Below the pieces are notes generated by a model. It was not told the origin of the DNA and did no database searches. It saw only the letters and a list, made by a program, of their open reading frames with translations. A DNA stretch of 11,000 nt from a bacterium (lineage in GTDB: Bacteria > UBP6 > JAFGXH01): assembly GCA_027064085.1 (NCBI GenBank), contig JAMOQH010000090.1, positions 1 to 11,000 of the forward strand, written 5' to 3'. The translations under genes and the position numbers were made by a program. Shown here in pieces: positions 2,939-11,000 of the stretch. How positions within the stretch are numbered: position 1 is the stretch's first letter; every line of letters begins with the position of its first letter.

Positions 2939-3610
2939 ATGCCATATAAGCATTCAGAAAAAAAGATACCTGAGAAATTAGATAGAAGAGTTAAATTAAC
3001 TAAGTCTCAAAAAGATGAAAAAAAAATGAAAAAAAATATAAAAAAATGTTCAGTTAAAGATTGTGATAAAAATGCTAAATGCAAAGGATTATGTATAACG
3101 CATTATAATAGATATAAAAGATATGGAAGAACACATTTAATAAGAAAATTTAATTTATCAGACAATGAAAAAAGAATGTATAAAATTTTAAAAGAAATGA
3201 TAAGAAGATGTGAAAATAAAAAATCAAATGCTTATAAATGGTATGGAGCTAAAGGGATAACTGTTTGTGATAGATGGAAAAATTCTGTTGAATTATTTAT
3301 ATCAGATATGGGAGAAAGACCAGATGAAAATTATAGTATCGACAGAATTGATAGCAATGGTAACTATGAACCAAGTAATTGTAGATGGGCAAACAGAACA
3401 ACACAAGCAAGAAATATTTCAACATTAAGAAAAAATAATACAACAGGGTTTAAAGGCGTAGGCAAACATGGTAAAAAATTTCAAGCAAGAATAACTATAA
3501 AAAAGAAATTAATACATATTGGAACTTTTGATACAGCAAAAGAAGCAGCTTTGGCATATGATAAATATATAAATATTCATAATTTAGAACATACTAAAAA
3601 TTTTATATAA
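2939..3610 (+). CDS. HNH-type homing endonuclease with zinc finger and AP2 DNA-binding domain
   Basis: I take the ATG at 2939 because AAAGGAG lies seven bases upstream; an in-frame GTG at 2903 lies inside the hairpin and has no ribosome site. The 223-aa protein has three parts. Residues 37-55 form a small metal site (C37, C42, C48, C52, H55). Residues about 87-160 match the phage HNH family, with RRC91, WYGAKGI (101-107), W113, DMG (123-125), SIDRIDSNGNY (133-143) and NCRW (147-150). Residues 168-211 form an AP2 domain (TTGFKGV, then FQARI, IGTFDTAKEAALAYD). Such proteins cut a specific DNA site and spread their own gene. Residues 1-27 (MPYKHSEKKIPEKLDRR...) look unlike the rest and resemble the N-terminus of the HTH family whose C-terminal part follows at 3598-3810, so the gene seems to have landed inside that HTH gene and adopted its start. 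Confidence 0.88.
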   Translation: MPYKHSEKKIPEKLDRRVKLTKSQKDEKKMKKNIKKCSVKDCDKNAKCKGLCITHYNRYKRYGRTHLIRKFNLSDNEKRMYKILKEMIRRCENKKSNAYKWYGAKGITVCDRWKNSVELFISDMGERPDENYSIDRIDSNGNYEPSNCRWANRTTQARNISTLRKNNTTGFKGVGKHGKKFQARITIKKKLIHIGTFDTAKEAALAYDKYINIHNLEHTKNFI

Positions 3611-4123: not shown

Positions 4124-5971
4124 ATGAAATTAAGTGAAACAATTACACTTAGAGATTACCAAGAAGAAATGGTAATAAAAACACTTGATGCGATTGATGA
4201 GCTAGAAAGTGAACAAGCATTTGGTGAACCAGATTCATATACAATAATAATGAAGCTACTGATGTCGGCTGGAAAAACCTATACTGCTTTAGCATTAGCA
4301 AATGAGCTTTCAAAAAGAGGAGAAAAGATAGGGATCTTTTTTCCATATAAAATATTAGTTGATCAATTCGCAGAATCAGCAAGAGAAGCTAATATAGAAA
4401 TTGGAGTTATATCATCAGGAACTAAGAACCCTAATCCAGAAGCAAATATTCAAGTATGTATGATCCAAACTTTACATAGTATGTATAGAAACAATAAATT
4501 AGATATTAAATTTAGTAAAGTTATCCAGGACGAAGTTGCTTCTCACTTTGAAAGTGGTTCTGTTATTGATTTAAAAGAATCTCTTGGATATAACATTAGA
4601 ATTGGAATGACAGGTACTGATTTTACAAGTCAAGGATATGCTTTAAATGCCTTTAAAACTATTGAAACAATAGGACCAAAAGGATTGGTTGAACAAAAAG
4701 CATGGCATCCAAATATGAAATATAATGTTGCTAATTTTTCTGAAAAAATGGATTGGGATAAAATTAAAATTGAAAGTAATGGAGAATTTAATCAAGCACA
4801 ATTAAGTGAAATAATTGAAGCAGATACATATATACATCAAGCAATTAAAGCAATGAATAGTTTTAATATGAAAGACGATAAGACAATTGTTTTTACATCA
4901 TCAATACATATGGCTCAAAAAATAACAGTAGCATTAAATGAAGCAGGATATTCAGCAAAAGAATATCATTCAAAGATGAAAAAAAAAGAACGAGAAGCAG
5001 TATTAAATAGCTTTATAAATGAAACAGAATATAAAGATCCAAACAACAAACAAATAGCTCTTCCTGGAATGAGAGAACAAGAACCAGAGATTATCAAATG
5101 TTGTGTTAATGTTCAAGCATTAAATGTTGGGTTTAATGTTCCAGATATAAAGAATTTAGTATTAGCAACATCAATGATGAGTAGAATTAAACACCATCAA
5201 ACAATTGCAAGATTGATTAGATATCATGAAATGGAAGAAAAAATCCTTTTAGACTGTGGATCCAACATTTCAAGAAACTTTTTCTTAGATGATACATTTA
5301 CTCCTGTAAATAGAACAGAGAATAAACAAATAGACAAAGCTAACCTAGCTAGAGAAAATGCTAAATGGAGCTTGCCTTTATTAAATGAATTCCTAAGTGA
5401 CGATCTAACTACTGAAATATCAAGAGATTGGTATGATAGTAAATTGGATAATCTTAGGGCTATTGAAAATAGCATTTTTAATAATAACCAAGAAGAAGAA
5501 TTGGTTAAAGAGGGAACTGGATCTAGCAATAGGGATATAGATCCAGAAGAAGTGCGTATTAAACATGAACAAGATATGGCTAAAAACATGGCAATGGTCT
5601 TAAGAACAACAGATGACTTAGAACATTTAGCAAAAGCTTATATTTGGTTCTGGATGTATATAAATGGATCTCCTATATCAAAGGCTGGGCATAAATATGT
5701 TCCCAAAACGGAGTGGTTCGTAGATAAATGGAAAGCAGATATTGATAAATATCCTGAAGTGAGAAACAGATTTATGAAAGCTTTGAAAACAAGAGCTAAG
5801 AATATAATCAAAGAAGGGAAGAATATTAATTCTTTATCTTTTTTTACGAATTTCTTATTAACAAATTATGAAAATGAGATCCAACAACAAGATGAATATA
5901 AACAATTACAATTTGGTTCTGAAGACAACAATGTAATGAATGAAATTTCAGAAGAAGAATGTCCATTTTAA
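4124..5971 (+). CDS. Superfamily 2 DNA/RNA helicase (DEAD/DEAH-type core)
   Basis: A 615-aa protein with the SF2 motifs in order. These are LRDYQ (9-13, Q-motif-like), the Walker A variant MSAGKT (47-52, K51), the Walker B/DExx box DEVA (136-139) followed by SHF, and TGT (163-165, motif III). They continue with IVFTSS near 255 (motif IV), VQALNVGFNVPD near 329-340 (motif V) and QTIARLIR (359-366, motif VI with arginine fingers). The DExx box is not a clean DEAH or DEAD, which is usual for phage UvsW/RadD-like helicases. The last 240 residues form a separate helical region, with a WFW/YING segment near 507-513, that I cannot assign. It uses ATP to move on or remodel nucleic acid, probably in phage replication or recombination with the nearby nuclease. 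The ribosome site AAAAGGAT precedes the ATG. Confidence 0.9.
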   Translation: MKLSETITLRDYQEEMVIKTLDAIDELESEQAFGEPDSYTIIMKLLMSAGKTYTALALANELSKRGEKIGIFFPYKILVDQFAESAREANIEIGVISSGTKNPNPEANIQVCMIQTLHSMYRNNKLDIKFSKVIQDEVASHFESGSVIDLKESLGYNIRIGMTGTDFTSQGYALNAFKTIETIGPKGLVEQKAWHPNMKYNVANFSEKMDWDKIKIESNGEFNQAQLSEIIEADTYIHQAIKAMNSFNMKDDKTIVFTSSIHMAQKITVALNEAGYSAKEYHSKMKKKEREAVLNSFINETEYKDPNNKQIALPGMREQEPEIIKCCVNVQALNVGFNVPDIKNLVLATSMMSRIKHHQTIARLIRYHEMEEKILLDCGSNISRNFFLDDTFTPVNRTENKQIDKANLARENAKWSLPLLNEFLSDDLTTEISRDWYDSKLDNLRAIENSIFNNNQEEELVKEGTGSSNRDIDPEEVRIKHEQDMAKNMAMVLRTTDDLEHLAKAYIWFWMYINGSPISKAGHKYVPKTEWFVDKWKADIDKYPEVRNRFMKALKTRAKNIIKEGKNINSLSFFTNFLLTNYENEIQQQDEYKQLQFGSEDNNVMNEISEEECPF

Positions 5972-7709: not shown

Positions 7710-7773
7710 AGAAAATGAATTTACAAGACTGTATACAAAAACTGAGTAATTTCACATGATTAAGAAAAATTAG

Positions 7774-7992
7774 ATGTATCAATTAGAAATAGAACTAGAA
7801 CCAACAGATATAGATAATGAGAAACTATATAAAGCCACTGAAAGCTCAAACGGAAACAACAAGAGTAAGTATATAGATAAGAACAAACTCAGTCATATAA
7901 TGCGAGTATTACATCCAGATTCTAAAGACTTAAATTTTGTTAGAAAAGCTACTCAATTATTTAGAGCTGAAAAGATTACTATTGAAAAGTAG
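7774..7992 (+). CDS. Small protein with a J-domain-like HPD segment (72 aa)
   Basis: A 72-aa reading frame that starts at an ATG directly after a stop (TAGATG) with only a weak purine stretch (AAGAAAA) upstream. The C-terminal half reads LSHIMRVLHPDSKDLNF followed by VRKATQLFRAEKI. This looks like helix II, the HPD turn (H47-P48-D49) and helix III of a DnaJ J-domain, but no convincing helix I precedes it. J-domains stimulate Hsp70 ATPases, and phage-encoded ones recruit host DnaK. It may be a divergent or decayed J-domain protein, or a chance match. The following 480 bases hold no gene. Confidence 0.45.
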   Translation: MYQLEIELEPTDIDNEKLYKATESSNGNNKSKYIDKNKLSHIMRVLHPDSKDLNFVRKATQLFRAEKITIEK

Positions 7993-8017
7993 ATCCAAAC
8001 AACAAACACAACCTCTC

Positions 8018-8174
8018 GTATCATCGTTACCGATTGAGCGTTAAGAAAAGCACTACTCAAAGGCTTGCCCCCAAAGGGCTTGTCCCTGGAGGGGGTGGCG
8101 TAAATGAGCCCGAAGGGCGAAAGCCACCTTTGACGTATGCTTTTATTATAAGCGATTGAGGTAAAAGATGATAC
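8018..8174. ncRNA. Candidate multi-branched structured RNA (strand uncertain)
   Basis: Pairings nest. GTATCATC (8018-8025) pairs with GATGATAC (8167-8174), and TACC (8028-8031) with GGTA (8160-8163). AAAAGCA (8046-8052) pairs with TGCTTTT (8138-8144), and TCAAAGG (8057-8063) with CCTTTGA (8127-8133). Inside are two adjacent arms. Arm A is CCCCC (8068-8072) with GGGGG (8091-8095), enclosing AGGG/CCCT (8075-8078, 8084-8087). Arm B is TGGC (8096-8099) with GCCA (8123-8126), enclosing GCCC-GAA-GGGC (8108-8118). This is a three-way junction on a long interrupted stem. No promoter is obvious on either strand, so transcription is unproven. It could instead act as single-stranded DNA at an origin. 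Confidence 0.5.
8068..8111 (+). other. Candidate origin of transfer (MOB_Q-like oriT)
   Basis: An inverted repeat (CCCCC at 8068-8072 with GGGGG at 8091-8095, inner AGGG/CCCT) is followed by GTAAATGAGCCC (8100-8111). From memory, the RSF1010/R1162 oriT has an inverted repeat followed at once by GTAAATGCGCCC, which differs at one of 12 positions; nicking there falls just before CCC. The layout matches, but the repeat sequence itself differs and no relaxase gene is in the window, so this is a hypothesis only. Confidence 0.3.
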
Positions 8175-8177
8175 ATA

Positions 8178-8222
8178 CTTATTATCTTAAATAAGAACCA
8201 AAATATTATATGTCTTGGTTCT
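8178..8222. other. Two overlapping hairpins
   Basis: CTTATT (8178-8183) pairs with AATAAG (8190-8195) across six bases. AGAACCAA (8194-8201) pairs perfectly with TTGGTTCT (8215-8222) across 13 bases. They share two bases (8194-8195), so they could stack end to end with one pair yielding. No T-run follows, so a terminator role is not supported. Confidence 0.45.
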
Positions 8223-8232
8223 GTTTGATTGG

Positions 8233-8323
8233 CTCTATTAGATTGTGCATATAGATTGGATCGATAGAGTAAATGTTCCGTGAGCAAGCTCACAAAACAT
8301 TTAGTTTAGCAACTGCCTCTATC
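8233..8323. promoter_or_regulatory. Switch-like alternative pairing around a strong hairpin
   Basis: GATAGAG (8263-8269) can pair with CTCTATC (8317-8323) downstream, or its ATAGAG part with CTCTAT (8233-8238) upstream, but not with both. The downstream pairing encloses a strong hairpin: AAATGTT (8271-8277) with AACATTT (8296-8302), a CC/AA internal loop, then GTGAG (8280-8284) with CTCAC (8289-8293) closed by CAAG. Read on the minus strand the loop is CTTG, a known stable RNA tetraloop. This is the geometry of an attenuator or copy-control RNA, though no target is identified. Confidence 0.4.
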
Positions 8324-8353
8324 TTGGTTGATTGTTTAAAGATAACTTTTGTA

Positions 8354-8382
8354 TTTTGACTCCAGCTACGCTGTCGTCAAAA
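8354..8382. other. Hairpin with symmetrical TC/TC internal loop
   Basis: TTTTGAC (8354-8360) pairs with GTCAAAA (8376-8382). Inside, TC faces TC, and CAGC (8363-8366) pairs with GCTG (8370-8373) around TAC. It is followed by CGGAGGGGTGG and not by a T-run, so it does not look like an intrinsic terminator on the + strand. It may be a protein-binding site or the last helix of a larger structured RNA. Confidence 0.45.
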
Positions 8383-8475
8383 CGGAGGGGTGGATTTTAG
8401 TTTAAGGTTATTTTAATTTGTTCCAGAAATTCTTCTCCTCCACATATAAGTAATAGTAGTGAAATAATTTTATAG

Positions 8476-8495
8476 TTTGTTTCCATGGAAACAAA
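8476..8495. promoter_or_regulatory. parS: parS-like site 1
   Basis: A perfect 20-bp palindrome, TTTGTTTCCATGGAAACAAA, first of three identical copies ahead of a ParB-like gene. Its 16-bp core TGTTTCCATGGAAACA matches the chromosomal-type parS (TGTTTCACGTGAAACA) at 12 of 16 positions. Only the central four bases differ (CATG in place of ACGT). It is probably bound by the adjacent ParB. Confidence 0.75.
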
Positions 8496-8510
8496 ATTAA
8501 TAGTAATTTC

Positions 8511-8530
8511 TTTGTTTCCATGGAAACAAA
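8511..8530. promoter_or_regulatory. parS: parS-like site 2
   Basis: Second identical copy of the 20-bp palindrome, its centre 35 bp after that of site 1. The sequence between sites 1 and 2 is plain AT-rich DNA with no shared motif, so the conserved unit is the palindrome alone. Confidence 0.75.
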
Positions 8531-8554
8531 ACTTTATGTATTTTCTATCTTTTT

Positions 8555-8574
8555 TTTGTTTCCATGGAAACAAA
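8555..8574. promoter_or_regulatory. parS: parS-like site 3
   Basis: Third identical copy, its centre 44 bp after that of site 2 and preceded by a run of T. It ends 28 bases before the -35 of the promoter inferred for the ParB-like gene, so ParB loading or spreading here could also repress that promoter. Confidence 0.75.
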
Positions 8575-8601
8575 GAAATATTAAAAAATAGCATTATCTA
8601 C

Positions 8602-8630
8602 TTTACTTTGTTCATAAAAAAAGCTATAAT
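8602..8630 (+). promoter_or_regulatory. Probable sigma70 promoter of the ParB-like gene
   Basis: TTTACT (8602-8607, four of six matches to TTGACA) and a perfect TATAAT (8625-8630) are separated by 17 bases. It lies between the parS cluster and the ParB-like gene and predicts a leader of about 40 bases. Confidence rests on the perfect -10 and ideal spacing. Confidence 0.6.
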
Positions 8631-8652
8631 ATTAATAATTATCTTGAACAAA
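8607..8652. promoter_or_regulatory. Inverted repeat flanking the -10 box, possible operator
   Basis: TTTGTTCA (8607-8614) and TGAACAAA (8645-8652) are perfect inverted copies bracketing the -10 and probable transcript start. The half-site TTTGTT is shared with the outer arm of the parS-like sites, so ParB or another regulator could bind here to control the gene. In RNA only the right arm would be present, so a DNA operator is more likely than a hairpin. Confidence 0.35.
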
Positions 8653-8678
8653 ATCAATCAGAAGAAGGAAAAACAGAC

Positions 8679-9485
8679 ATGAAAAAAGATAAAAAAATAA
8701 AAACAGAAGATATTTTTGCAAGAAATATTTACGATATAGAAACACATAAGTTAGCAAATATGAATCCAATGCAAAATGATGAAGATTTTTTAGCATTAAA
8801 ATATAGTATTGAAAAAATAGGTCAAACAGATCCAATATTAATGTTTAAAGGAAAATTAGTAGATGGAAGAAATAGATTAAAAGCATTAAAAGAACTTTAT
8901 GAAGATACCGAAGAAGAAAAATATAAAATTATAAAATATAAAAAACTTTCAACAACTCTTTCAAATGATGAATTAGAAGAATTAATAATTGGAAAAGAAA
9001 CGAGAAGACATAAAAGTATTGTACAAAAAGCAATTCAATCATTAAATTATTATGAAGCTAAAAAAGAATTAAAAGAAGATATAAATATGCGTGAATCTGC
9101 AAAAAAATTTGGAGTAAGCGTAGGACAAGTATCAAAAGTATTATCTTTAAAAAAAGTAGCTGGAGAAGCAGTGGTGCAAATATTGTTTAATGGTGGAAGT
9201 ATAAAAATAAAAAAAGCAAAAGCAAATGGAACAATATATGAAATTAAATCAACATCACCTGATGCAATTAGAAAATATTATGAAGGATTAATTGCAAAAA
9301 ATGATTCAATATACGAAAATATGGAAGCAGAAGAGATGGCATATATACAATTAATAAGTACAGAATTATTAAATGATTTATCTTTTGATGGAGCAAATTA
9401 TTTAATGAAAATAATTGAAAATTCAAAGGATATAAATAAAACTTCATATAATAAAGAAAAAATAGAAGATTATATTAGTTCATAG
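8679..9485 (+). CDS. ParB-like partition/DNA-binding protein
   Basis: A 268-aa protein with a ParB/Srx-type N-terminal domain: a strand-helix segment at 28-50 (with SIEKIGQTDPILMF at 43-56), then LVDGRNRLKAL (60-70). R64 and R66 sit where classical ParB CTPases have the GERRxRA motif, so the nucleotide pocket looks altered. KETRRHKSIVQKA (106-118) matches the next conserved block of this superfamily. A helix-turn-helix follows at about 136-157 (NMRESAKKFGVSVGQVSKVL). The C-terminal 90 residues are charged and probably mediate dimerisation. AAGGA (8665-8669) precedes the ATG. Three parS-like palindromes and a promoter lie upstream, which supports a role in segregation or replicon maintenance. 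No ParA gene lies in the window. A phage ParB-like regulator is the main alternative. Confidence 0.82.
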   Translation: MKKDKKIKTEDIFARNIYDIETHKLANMNPMQNDEDFLALKYSIEKIGQTDPILMFKGKLVDGRNRLKALKELYEDTEEEKYKIIKYKKLSTTLSNDELEELIIGKETRRHKSIVQKAIQSLNYYEAKKELKEDINMRESAKKFGVSVGQVSKVLSLKKVAGEAVVQILFNGGSIKIKKAKANGTIYEIKSTSPDAIRKYYEGLIAKNDSIYENMEAEEMAYIQLISTELLNDLSFDGANYLMKIIENSKDINKTSYNKEKIEDYISS

Positions 9486-9598
9486 CTAATAAGTAATTAA
9501 AATTTATATACAATAGATTTAAGATTTATTATATATAATGATTTTGAAATCATAAAATCAAATTATCGCTATAAATATATAAACAAAAAGAACAAAGA
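9486..9598 (+). promoter_or_regulatory. Gap with a possible promoter and a small hairpin
   Basis: TATAAT at 9534-9539 could be a -10 for the membrane-protein gene, but no good -35 lies 17 bases upstream. A short hairpin, ATGATT (9538-9543) with AATCAT (9548-9553) around TTGA, overlaps it. No T-run follows, so a terminator is not supported. Either reading is weak. Confidence 0.25.
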
Positions 9599-10075
9599 AT
9601 GAAAAGAATGAATTGTAATAAAATAGATTTGATGTTAATCAATCCAAAAACTTTAATATGTATAATATTAGAGTTTATAAGAGAAAAAAATAAAACAGAA
9701 AACTTTACAGGTTATGTAATTACTATGTTAATCATATTAACATTATGGTTTGTAATTGCATTATTTATATTTAATATAATTGGAAATAAGCCAATATTTG
9801 AATATTCAAAAGGAGAAATTACAGGTAAAGCTGTGAAATTATCAACTAAAGGTTTAATATTTAAAACTACAGAAGGTTATTTAATGACTGGAGGAATTGA
9901 TAATGGAACAGCAACAAAATGGGAATTTACAGTAATAGATAATAAATTAACAAAATGTATTAATTCAAATAATGATGTAATATTAACTTATACACAATAT
10001 TTATTAGTACCATATAGAATTGGAAATACACATTATATTGTAACAAATTGTAAAGAAAAAAAGGATAAAAAATGA
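9599..10075 (+). CDS. Single-pass inner-membrane protein of unknown function (158 aa)
   Basis: A 158-aa protein with one clear membrane helix at about 39-61 (YVITMLIILTLWFVIALFIFNII) and a strand-rich soluble C-terminal domain. That domain has GEITGKAVKLSTKGLIFKT (73-90), WEFTVIDN, then YTQYLLVPYRIGNTHYIVT. The pattern GxxxKLSxKGLxxKTxEG, weFxV, then Y(k/t)Q with a late GxTxYxV recalls a widespread small membrane-protein family of unknown role, sometimes mislabelled as a dehydrogenase. That link is from memory. The ribosome site is weak, and the ATG at 9608 is an alternative start nine bases downstream. The stop overlaps the next start (ATGA), so the two genes are probably co-translated. Confidence 0.75.
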   Translation: MKRMNCNKIDLMLINPKTLICIILEFIREKNKTENFTGYVITMLIILTLWFVIALFIFNIIGNKPIFEYSKGEITGKAVKLSTKGLIFKTTEGYLMTGGIDNGTATKWEFTVIDNKLTKCINSNNDVILTYTQYLLVPYRIGNTHYIVTNCKEKKDKK

Positions 10076-10227: not shown

Positions 10228-11000
10228 ATGGGAGGATATAAATATATCCTTGATAGATTAGAAAAGCAAGGTGATAGAAAAACAGATAGATTAATATACT
10301 CAAATGCTATCTTGTTCCACGCTGCTGTATTAATTAATGCTATCAATGGAAAAGCAAAAAAATATAATGGAAAAAATATTACATTTTATGGATTAACATT
10401 AGCGGGAAGTGCTTGTGTATCTGGTGATACTGAATTTATGACAGAAAATGGATGGAAAAAAATATCTGATTTTGAATATAGAGATAAAGTATTAGAAATA
10501 GAAAAAGATACCCATATAGCAACATTCAGAGAACCAATAAGATATGTCAAAGAATTTGATGATAAACCAGCTATAAGATATGTACCAAACACAAACAGCA
10601 ATGTTTCAATGCATATAACAGAAGATCATACAGTTTTATATTTAGAAAATAAAAATGATATAAAATCTTCAAAAGCAAAAACAGCAAAAGAAGTTTCAAA
10701 ACTTAATAATATTTATATTCCATCATTAAAAGAAGATGGTTCTTCAAATAGTACCATAGCTTCAAAAGATCAAATTGTTTATGAACAATTACCTAATAAT
10801 ACAAAATATTGTTTTACAACTAAGACAGGGTTCTGGTTAGCAAGACATGACAATTTTGTATTTATTACTGGAAATTGTGGAAAAGATTTCTCTTATGATT
10901 TAGCAGCAAAAGTATTTGGTACTGATACTCCTGGATTTAAAAAAGGTTATGTAGAAACAATTAAAACAAACCTTAGAAATAATCTTGTAAATGATGAATC
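10228..11000 (+). CDS. P-loop ATPase (probably DUF3987-like), interrupted by an intein; 3' end beyond window
   Basis: The frame is open from the ATG at 10228 (ribosome site AAGGA at 10216-10220) to the window end. Residues 1-62 are the N-extein, ending TFYGLTLAGSA; a 154-residue intein follows (63-216); the C-extein resumes CGKDFSYDLAAKVFG. Joined, the exteins read FYGLTLAGSACGKDFSYDLA, a P-loop-like segment (G-S-A-C-G-K-D) in which Asp replaces the usual Ser/Thr after Lys. The pattern 'fYgLxLApSGxGKD' recalls DUF3987 primase/helicase-associated ATPases of phages and plasmids, so a replication role is likely but inferred. Inteins favour such conserved active sites. Activity would depend on splicing, because the insert separates the P-loop glycine from its lysine. 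Confidence 0.8.
   Translation, partial: MGGYKYILDRLEKQGDRKTDRLIYSNAILFHAAVLINAINGKAKKYNGKNITFYGLTLAGSACVSGDTEFMTENGWKKISDFEYRDKVLEIEKDTHIATFREPIRYVKEFDDKPAIRYVPNTNSNVSMHITEDHTVLYLENKNDIKSSKAKTAKEVSKLNNIYIPSLKEDGSSNSTIASKDQIVYEQLPNNTKYCFTTKTGFWLARHDNFVFITGNCGKDFSYDLAAKVFGTDTPGFKKGYVETIKTNLRNNLVNDE
10414..10875 (+). other. Mini-intein (154 aa) inserted in the ATPase P-loop
   Basis: The Hint domain is complete. Block A is CVSGDTEFMTENGWKKI, starting with the nucleophile C63. Block B has T131-x2-H134 (ITEDHTVL). Block F is KYCFTTKTGFWLARHDNFVF, and block G is ITGN216, followed by the +1 nucleophile C217. The usual penultimate His is Gly215, and the block F Asp position is Cys195; both variants exist in natural inteins. 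At 154 residues it has no room for a homing endonuclease. It splices itself out of the protein and ligates the exteins. It starts and ends with Cys at the splice junctions, so the protein should be splicing-competent, though this is not proven. Confidence 0.92.

Follow-up and report, generated by a model that had tools for sequence, protein, structure and literature searches.

Whether three identical palindromes ahead of a ParB-like gene form a centromere, the loading sites of a ParB relative with another role, or the operator of a different regulator is the question raised by an 11,000-bp stretch of AT-rich phage DNA (the window), which is an entire contig (C90) of a 3.65-Mb draft genome (the host assembly, G000) and carries exonuclease-, helicase- and primase-like genes. 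The palindromes are 20 bp long, letter-identical (TTTGTTTCCATGGAAACAAA) and centred on CATG, with spacers of 15 and 24 bp that are unlike each other in sequence; they lie exactly where the original prediction had placed them, and the difference between the spacers was likewise borne out. The array ends about 100 bp upstream of the gene for a 268-aa ParB-like protein. The features of the locus, several of which align with a viral contig (L095) described below, are as follows.

8418 to 8431, no strand assigned: TTGTTCCAGAAATT motif upstream of the array, common to the window and L095 by alignment.
8476 to 8495, no strand assigned: site 1, TTTGTTTCCATGGAAACAAA, exact match, aligning with L095 site 1.
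8511 to 8530, no strand assigned: site 2, same letters, exact match, aligning with L095 site 2.
8555 to 8574, no strand assigned: site 3, same letters, exact match, aligning with L095 site 3.
8602 to 8630, + strand: putative promoter of the parB-like gene, TTTACT-17-TATAAT; the prediction is weak alone and is aligned with TTGACT-17-TATAAT in L095.
8679 to 9485, + strand: orphan ParB-like protein of 268 aa, with a ParB/Srx CTPase-type domain at residues ~11-111 and a helix-turn-helix (HTH) at ~114-161, from PHROG, hhalign and the predicted fold.

The clustering of sites in the window is far above chance. When TGTTTCCATGGAAACA was searched for with up to 3 mismatches, exactly 3 matches were found, compared with 0.08 expected from 200 dinucleotide shuffles, none of which (0/200) reached 3 matches. 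Exact copies of the 16-mer were expected at ~4e-6 per 11 kb (first-order Markov estimate), and the array sites account for three of the four perfect 16-bp palindromes in the window. Beyond these three, the site was not found in the 3.65-Mb host assembly, there was no Rfam match in the window, and literature mentions of TTTCCATGGAAA, judging by titles, included none on partition. Matches that BLAST gave for the array in plasmid and phage DNA were rejected as AT-rich or single-site.

The original prediction had assigned the array to the ParB-like gene, and this assignment was upheld by a survey of viral contigs based on the sites only (arms GTTTC/GAAAC with any centre, occurring twice within 70 bp), in which at least 118 loci were analysed. 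Among the matches listed was L095, which encodes a ParB 67% identical to that of the window; a scan with the protein only likewise found L095 and no other relative. Outside the locus, L095 and the window share only a weak exonuclease match (27.6%). The L095 TTGTTCCAGAAATT motif, three sites, promoter and ATG align one-to-one with those of the window, with 85% identity in the sites and 61% in the remaining aligned intergenic bases, and all three L095 sites have the centre CACA (in the parB sense) versus CATG in the window. Because both elements recur, with their promoter layout, in an otherwise different phage contig, the array and the ParB gene are an inherited pair. On the strength of this alignment, the pairing of the array with the ParB-like gene is real.

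The 268-aa protein gave a ParB-like PHROG match (2.7e-8) and, in profile-profile comparison (hhalign) with ten ParB/RepB sequences, a score of 98.4% (E 9e-15). Pfam ParB_N did not reach E 0.1 against it, no PDB relative was found by phmmer, and a search of 99 relatives and 28 genomes of the phylum turned up no related protein. A first structure model, built from two sequences, was poor and was discarded; the AlphaFold model was made from six aligned sequences and has a mean pLDDT of 73.5, with the C-terminal 60 residues unreliable. Model residues 11-111 match the Myxococcus ParB fold (7bnk; Z 13.2, rmsd 1.6 over 91 residues), and the model matches Noc with Z 12 and aligns with KorB over 161 residues. 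The helices of the HTH (residues 114-130, 137-144 and 148-161) have pLDDT values of about 87-92 and were aligned to the ParB HTH.

9087 to 9161, + strand: HTH including the recognition helix (..FGVSVGQVSKVLSLKKVA..), from the predicted model and alignments with L095 and ParBs.

As modelled, the protein is a member of the ParB superfamily by its fold and has the central HTH. Whether it would behave as a clamp is uncertain, given that its nucleotide-pocket motif is divergent (DGRNR versus the GERR type) and that ParB-fold relatives can bind ATP, GTP or neither (PMC12704722). By sequence, its distant relatives are orphan ParB-like genes found on phages, such as one in StB12 that adjoins repressor genes, and on Pseudomonas plasmids, such as one on pCAR1 that begins 1.7 kb after the real parB. 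L032, L033 and L062-L070, whose ParB-like genes are more distant, had no palindrome arrays beside those genes, bar an unrelated pair in L065.

That the locus moves as a unit is suggested by L014, a 91-kb record from a phage closely related to that of the window. The flanking DNA of the two is 92-97% identical, while the interior has been exchanged and the ParBs share 32% identity.

8409 to 10057, + strand: exchangeable cassette of array, parB-like gene and a 158-aa ORF (9599-10075), defined by the comparison with L014.

No array lies upstream of the L014 ParB. The whole record contains a single CATG site, at the right cassette edge and >0.5 kb from its ParB; since the 16-mer is expected only 3.6e-5 times in 91 kb, this site would be either a remnant or a working site. 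As a relative of the window phage with so low an expected count, L014 was the sole single-occurrence contig kept as evidence. The single 16-mers of viral contigs (15 stretches) were otherwise rejected, being about as frequent as chance (an estimate, the total bases being uncounted) and mostly not at ParB loci. Beside the single site are nested TTCGATCGAA-type palindromes (8786-8831 of L014), possibly the L014 ParB's own site or a terminator. Other observations on the window were made in passing. Positions 7993-8408 are non-coding, partly conserved with L014 (8225-8408, 93.5%) and GC-rich at 8057-8150, with no Rfam match; an HNH/AP2-like ORF at 2942-3607 (named from reading the sequence) looks inserted relative to L014; the protein encoded at 746-1519 has the metallo-beta-lactamase fold and matches the anti-Pycsar protein Apyc1 below threshold; and a primase-helicase-like gene at 10228-10998, which runs off the contig, is split by a Hint/intein-like domain.

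Among known systems, the ParB relatives KorB and VirB load at sites of this kind and influence distant promoters (PMC11790492, PMC10770331). The window has a comparable layout, kept in L095, in which palindromic candidate loading sites stand upstream of the predicted promoter, the first base of which is 28 bp past the end of site 3, and the array lies outside the -35/-10 box. KorB of plasmid RK2, acting at OB (PMC11790492), is a ParB-family CTPase clamp with an HTH to which the model of the window protein could be aligned, and its operators are also 16 bp, some of them 45 bp or more upstream of the target promoters; however, the site sequence differs, no KorA-type partner was found here, and the clamp here is only predicted. 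Shigella VirB at virS (PMC10770331) is likewise a ParB relative without partition that loads at parS-like palindromes upstream of promoters, but it belongs to another replicon and has an H-NS silencing context; the comparison with it concerns its role and the placing of its sites. Canonical ParABS (Caulobacter ParB-parS, TGTTTCACGTGAAACA) shares with the window the outer arms TGTTTC/GAAACA, a 16-bp palindrome clustered near the gene, and the N-domain plus HTH, whereas the window lacks a ParA and its protein lacks the ParA-binding motif. Noc and its site NBS (PMC7383237) offer an orphan ParB paralogue with an altered site in which position 6 is also C, although position 1 of NBS is A versus G here, Noc is chromosomal, and the window protein is without Q173.

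The view that CATG palindromes form parS-like arrays was also correct for loci with genuine ParAB genes. The related phages L013 (64 kb) and L021 (46 kb) carry ParA and ParB and, no more than about 10 bp further on, three copies of GTTTCCATGGAAAC, whose core is identical to that of the window. L165 has a ParA, a ParB 84% identical to that of L013 and four CGTG-centred copies 3′ of parB, and pMAQU01, the nearest plasmid relative, has seven AGTTTTCTATAGAAAACT-type sites after parB. The seven TTTTCTATAGAAAA palindromes at 4139-4490 of the pMAQU01 record (L039), right after parB, are a probable parS array with the centre TATA. These four systems resemble the window in having three to seven palindromes by parB, but they include ParA, their arrays are 3′ of parB, and their ParBs share only 13-20% identity with that of the window, so the identical core in the ParAB phages is either convergent or very old. 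Candidates rejected were L034 and L035 (low-complexity repeats) and, as parS arrays, L094 and L170 (GTTTCGATCGAAAC; inside coding sequence).

Partition was the function first proposed for the array, and the locus does contain a cluster of 16-bp parS-like palindromes near a parB, co-conserved in L095. If the phage were a phage-plasmid, the array would be its centromere and the ParA would be encoded elsewhere on its genome or borrowed from the host. The tight spacing of three sites by the gene resembles a parS array, identical core arrays adjoin ParA-ParB in L013 and L021 (with the CGTG version in L165), and the host assembly has many ParA-type ATPases. Against this, no ParA was found among the ORFs of the window, itself an incomplete 11-kb contig, nor was there a PF13614 match in the 91-kb L014 record; the ParA-binding motif, defined as (L/F/I)G(K/R)G(L/F/I) (PMC12704722), was absent from the 268-aa protein on reading its sequence; and the ribonucleotide reductase-, ThyX- and ligase-like genes of L014 (named from reading translations) better fit a lytic phage. 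We regard partition as unlikely, and that part of the original prediction did not find support. Less probable still is an array that is the operator of another regulator, with the ParB gene a mere neighbour. Such an arrangement would agree with L018, in which one TGTTTCCATGGAAACA lies within a longer near-palindrome (7770-7785) roughly 250 bp upstream of the gene for a Rep_3-like initiator, and with L020, an Actinomycetaceae MAG that was the one genome of 84,980 species genomes scanned to contain a pair of exact sites separated by 10-40 bp. In L020, three TGTTTCCATGGAAACA copies with a 27-bp period (1456-1525) stand ahead of genes for a flavodoxin-fold oxidoreductase and then a MarR-like protein, and no ParB was seen near the array. 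Clustering beside an unrelated regulator had been named beforehand as evidence against the pairing, and L020 has that form; it is a single instance set against three loci where the array accompanies a ParB, as a ParB gene is next door in 3/4 of the exact-core array loci found. L095 argues further against a mere neighbour, since it keeps array, position and parB in an otherwise different phage, and in the window the array and promoter do not overlap.

The pairing of array and gene thus probably serves regulation, not DNA partition, to judge from the analyses above. We consider it likely that the palindromes are the cognate loading sites of the downstream orphan ParB, a phage clamp of the KorB/VirB type, within a mobile cassette and with a regulatory role. 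The ParB-like protein would bind the site as a dimer, and the bound dimer would close as a nucleotide-gated clamp that slides or spreads over nearby phage DNA. By analogy with KorB and VirB, the clamp may control its own promoter, 28 bp off, and neighbouring genes, and it would not feed a ParA partition motor. The unit of three sites, promoter and orphan parB would travel between phages as a mobile cassette.

A further question, which bears on the preferred regulatory reading without replacing it, is whether the centre of the site encodes specificity. In Caulobacter ParB, R173 reads G1 of parS, and K171 and N178 also contact DNA (PMC7383237). The window falls outside this specificity class, the centre being CATG and not ACGT and the equivalents of K171, R173 and N178 being V, V and K (hhalign); since these residues are lacking, the resemblance of the arms to canonical parS may be convergent. 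In the host assembly, contigs C139, C115 and C157 hold two ParAB sets, one chromosomal and the other plasmid-like, and canonical parS matches are weak only, so site counts are no guide to orthogonality with respect to the host ParB.

An orthogonal code, possibly superimposed on the regulatory role, would make the centre tetranucleotide a switch and would have phages swap parB/site cassettes against cross-talk. Several observations favour the proposed orthogonal specificity: centres are uniform within each array and differ between homologues (CATG/CACA with ParBs 67% identical, CATG/CGTG with 84%, and TATA in pMAQU01 with 25%), the cassette is exchanged between the window and L014 within conserved flanks, and the first residues of the recognition helix are VGQV in the window versus ASQI in L095. 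However, L013 and L165 have identical recognition helices and different centres (CATG versus CGTG), and gene conversion can also yield uniform arrays. Because of the L013/L165 pair, centre-encoded specificity is unproven, and one or more of the central positions probably go unread; from the sequences, the centre may be only loosely read. We therefore hold such a code to be possible and on balance doubtful. A bolder form, in which a ParA-less phage ParB family has a swappable array with fixed arms and a centre re-coded array-wide, giving mutually exclusive clamp specificities like incompatibility groups, is more speculative and is offered only tentatively.

Mobile elements commonly carry orphan ParB proteins, and to our knowledge sequence rarely reveals the DNA sites that these proteins use. 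The ParB fold is turning up in many functions other than partition (PMC12704722). In the present case a protein family can be named along with its putative sites, and both vary naturally, as CATG/CACA between 67%-identical proteins, CATG/CGTG between 84%-identical proteins, and a cassette swapped in a near-identical phage. These paired variants open two questions to direct testing, namely whether the central bases of parS-like sites are read and what role a ParB clamp has where the phage lacks ParA, and they may yield further ParB/site pairs for DNA labelling.
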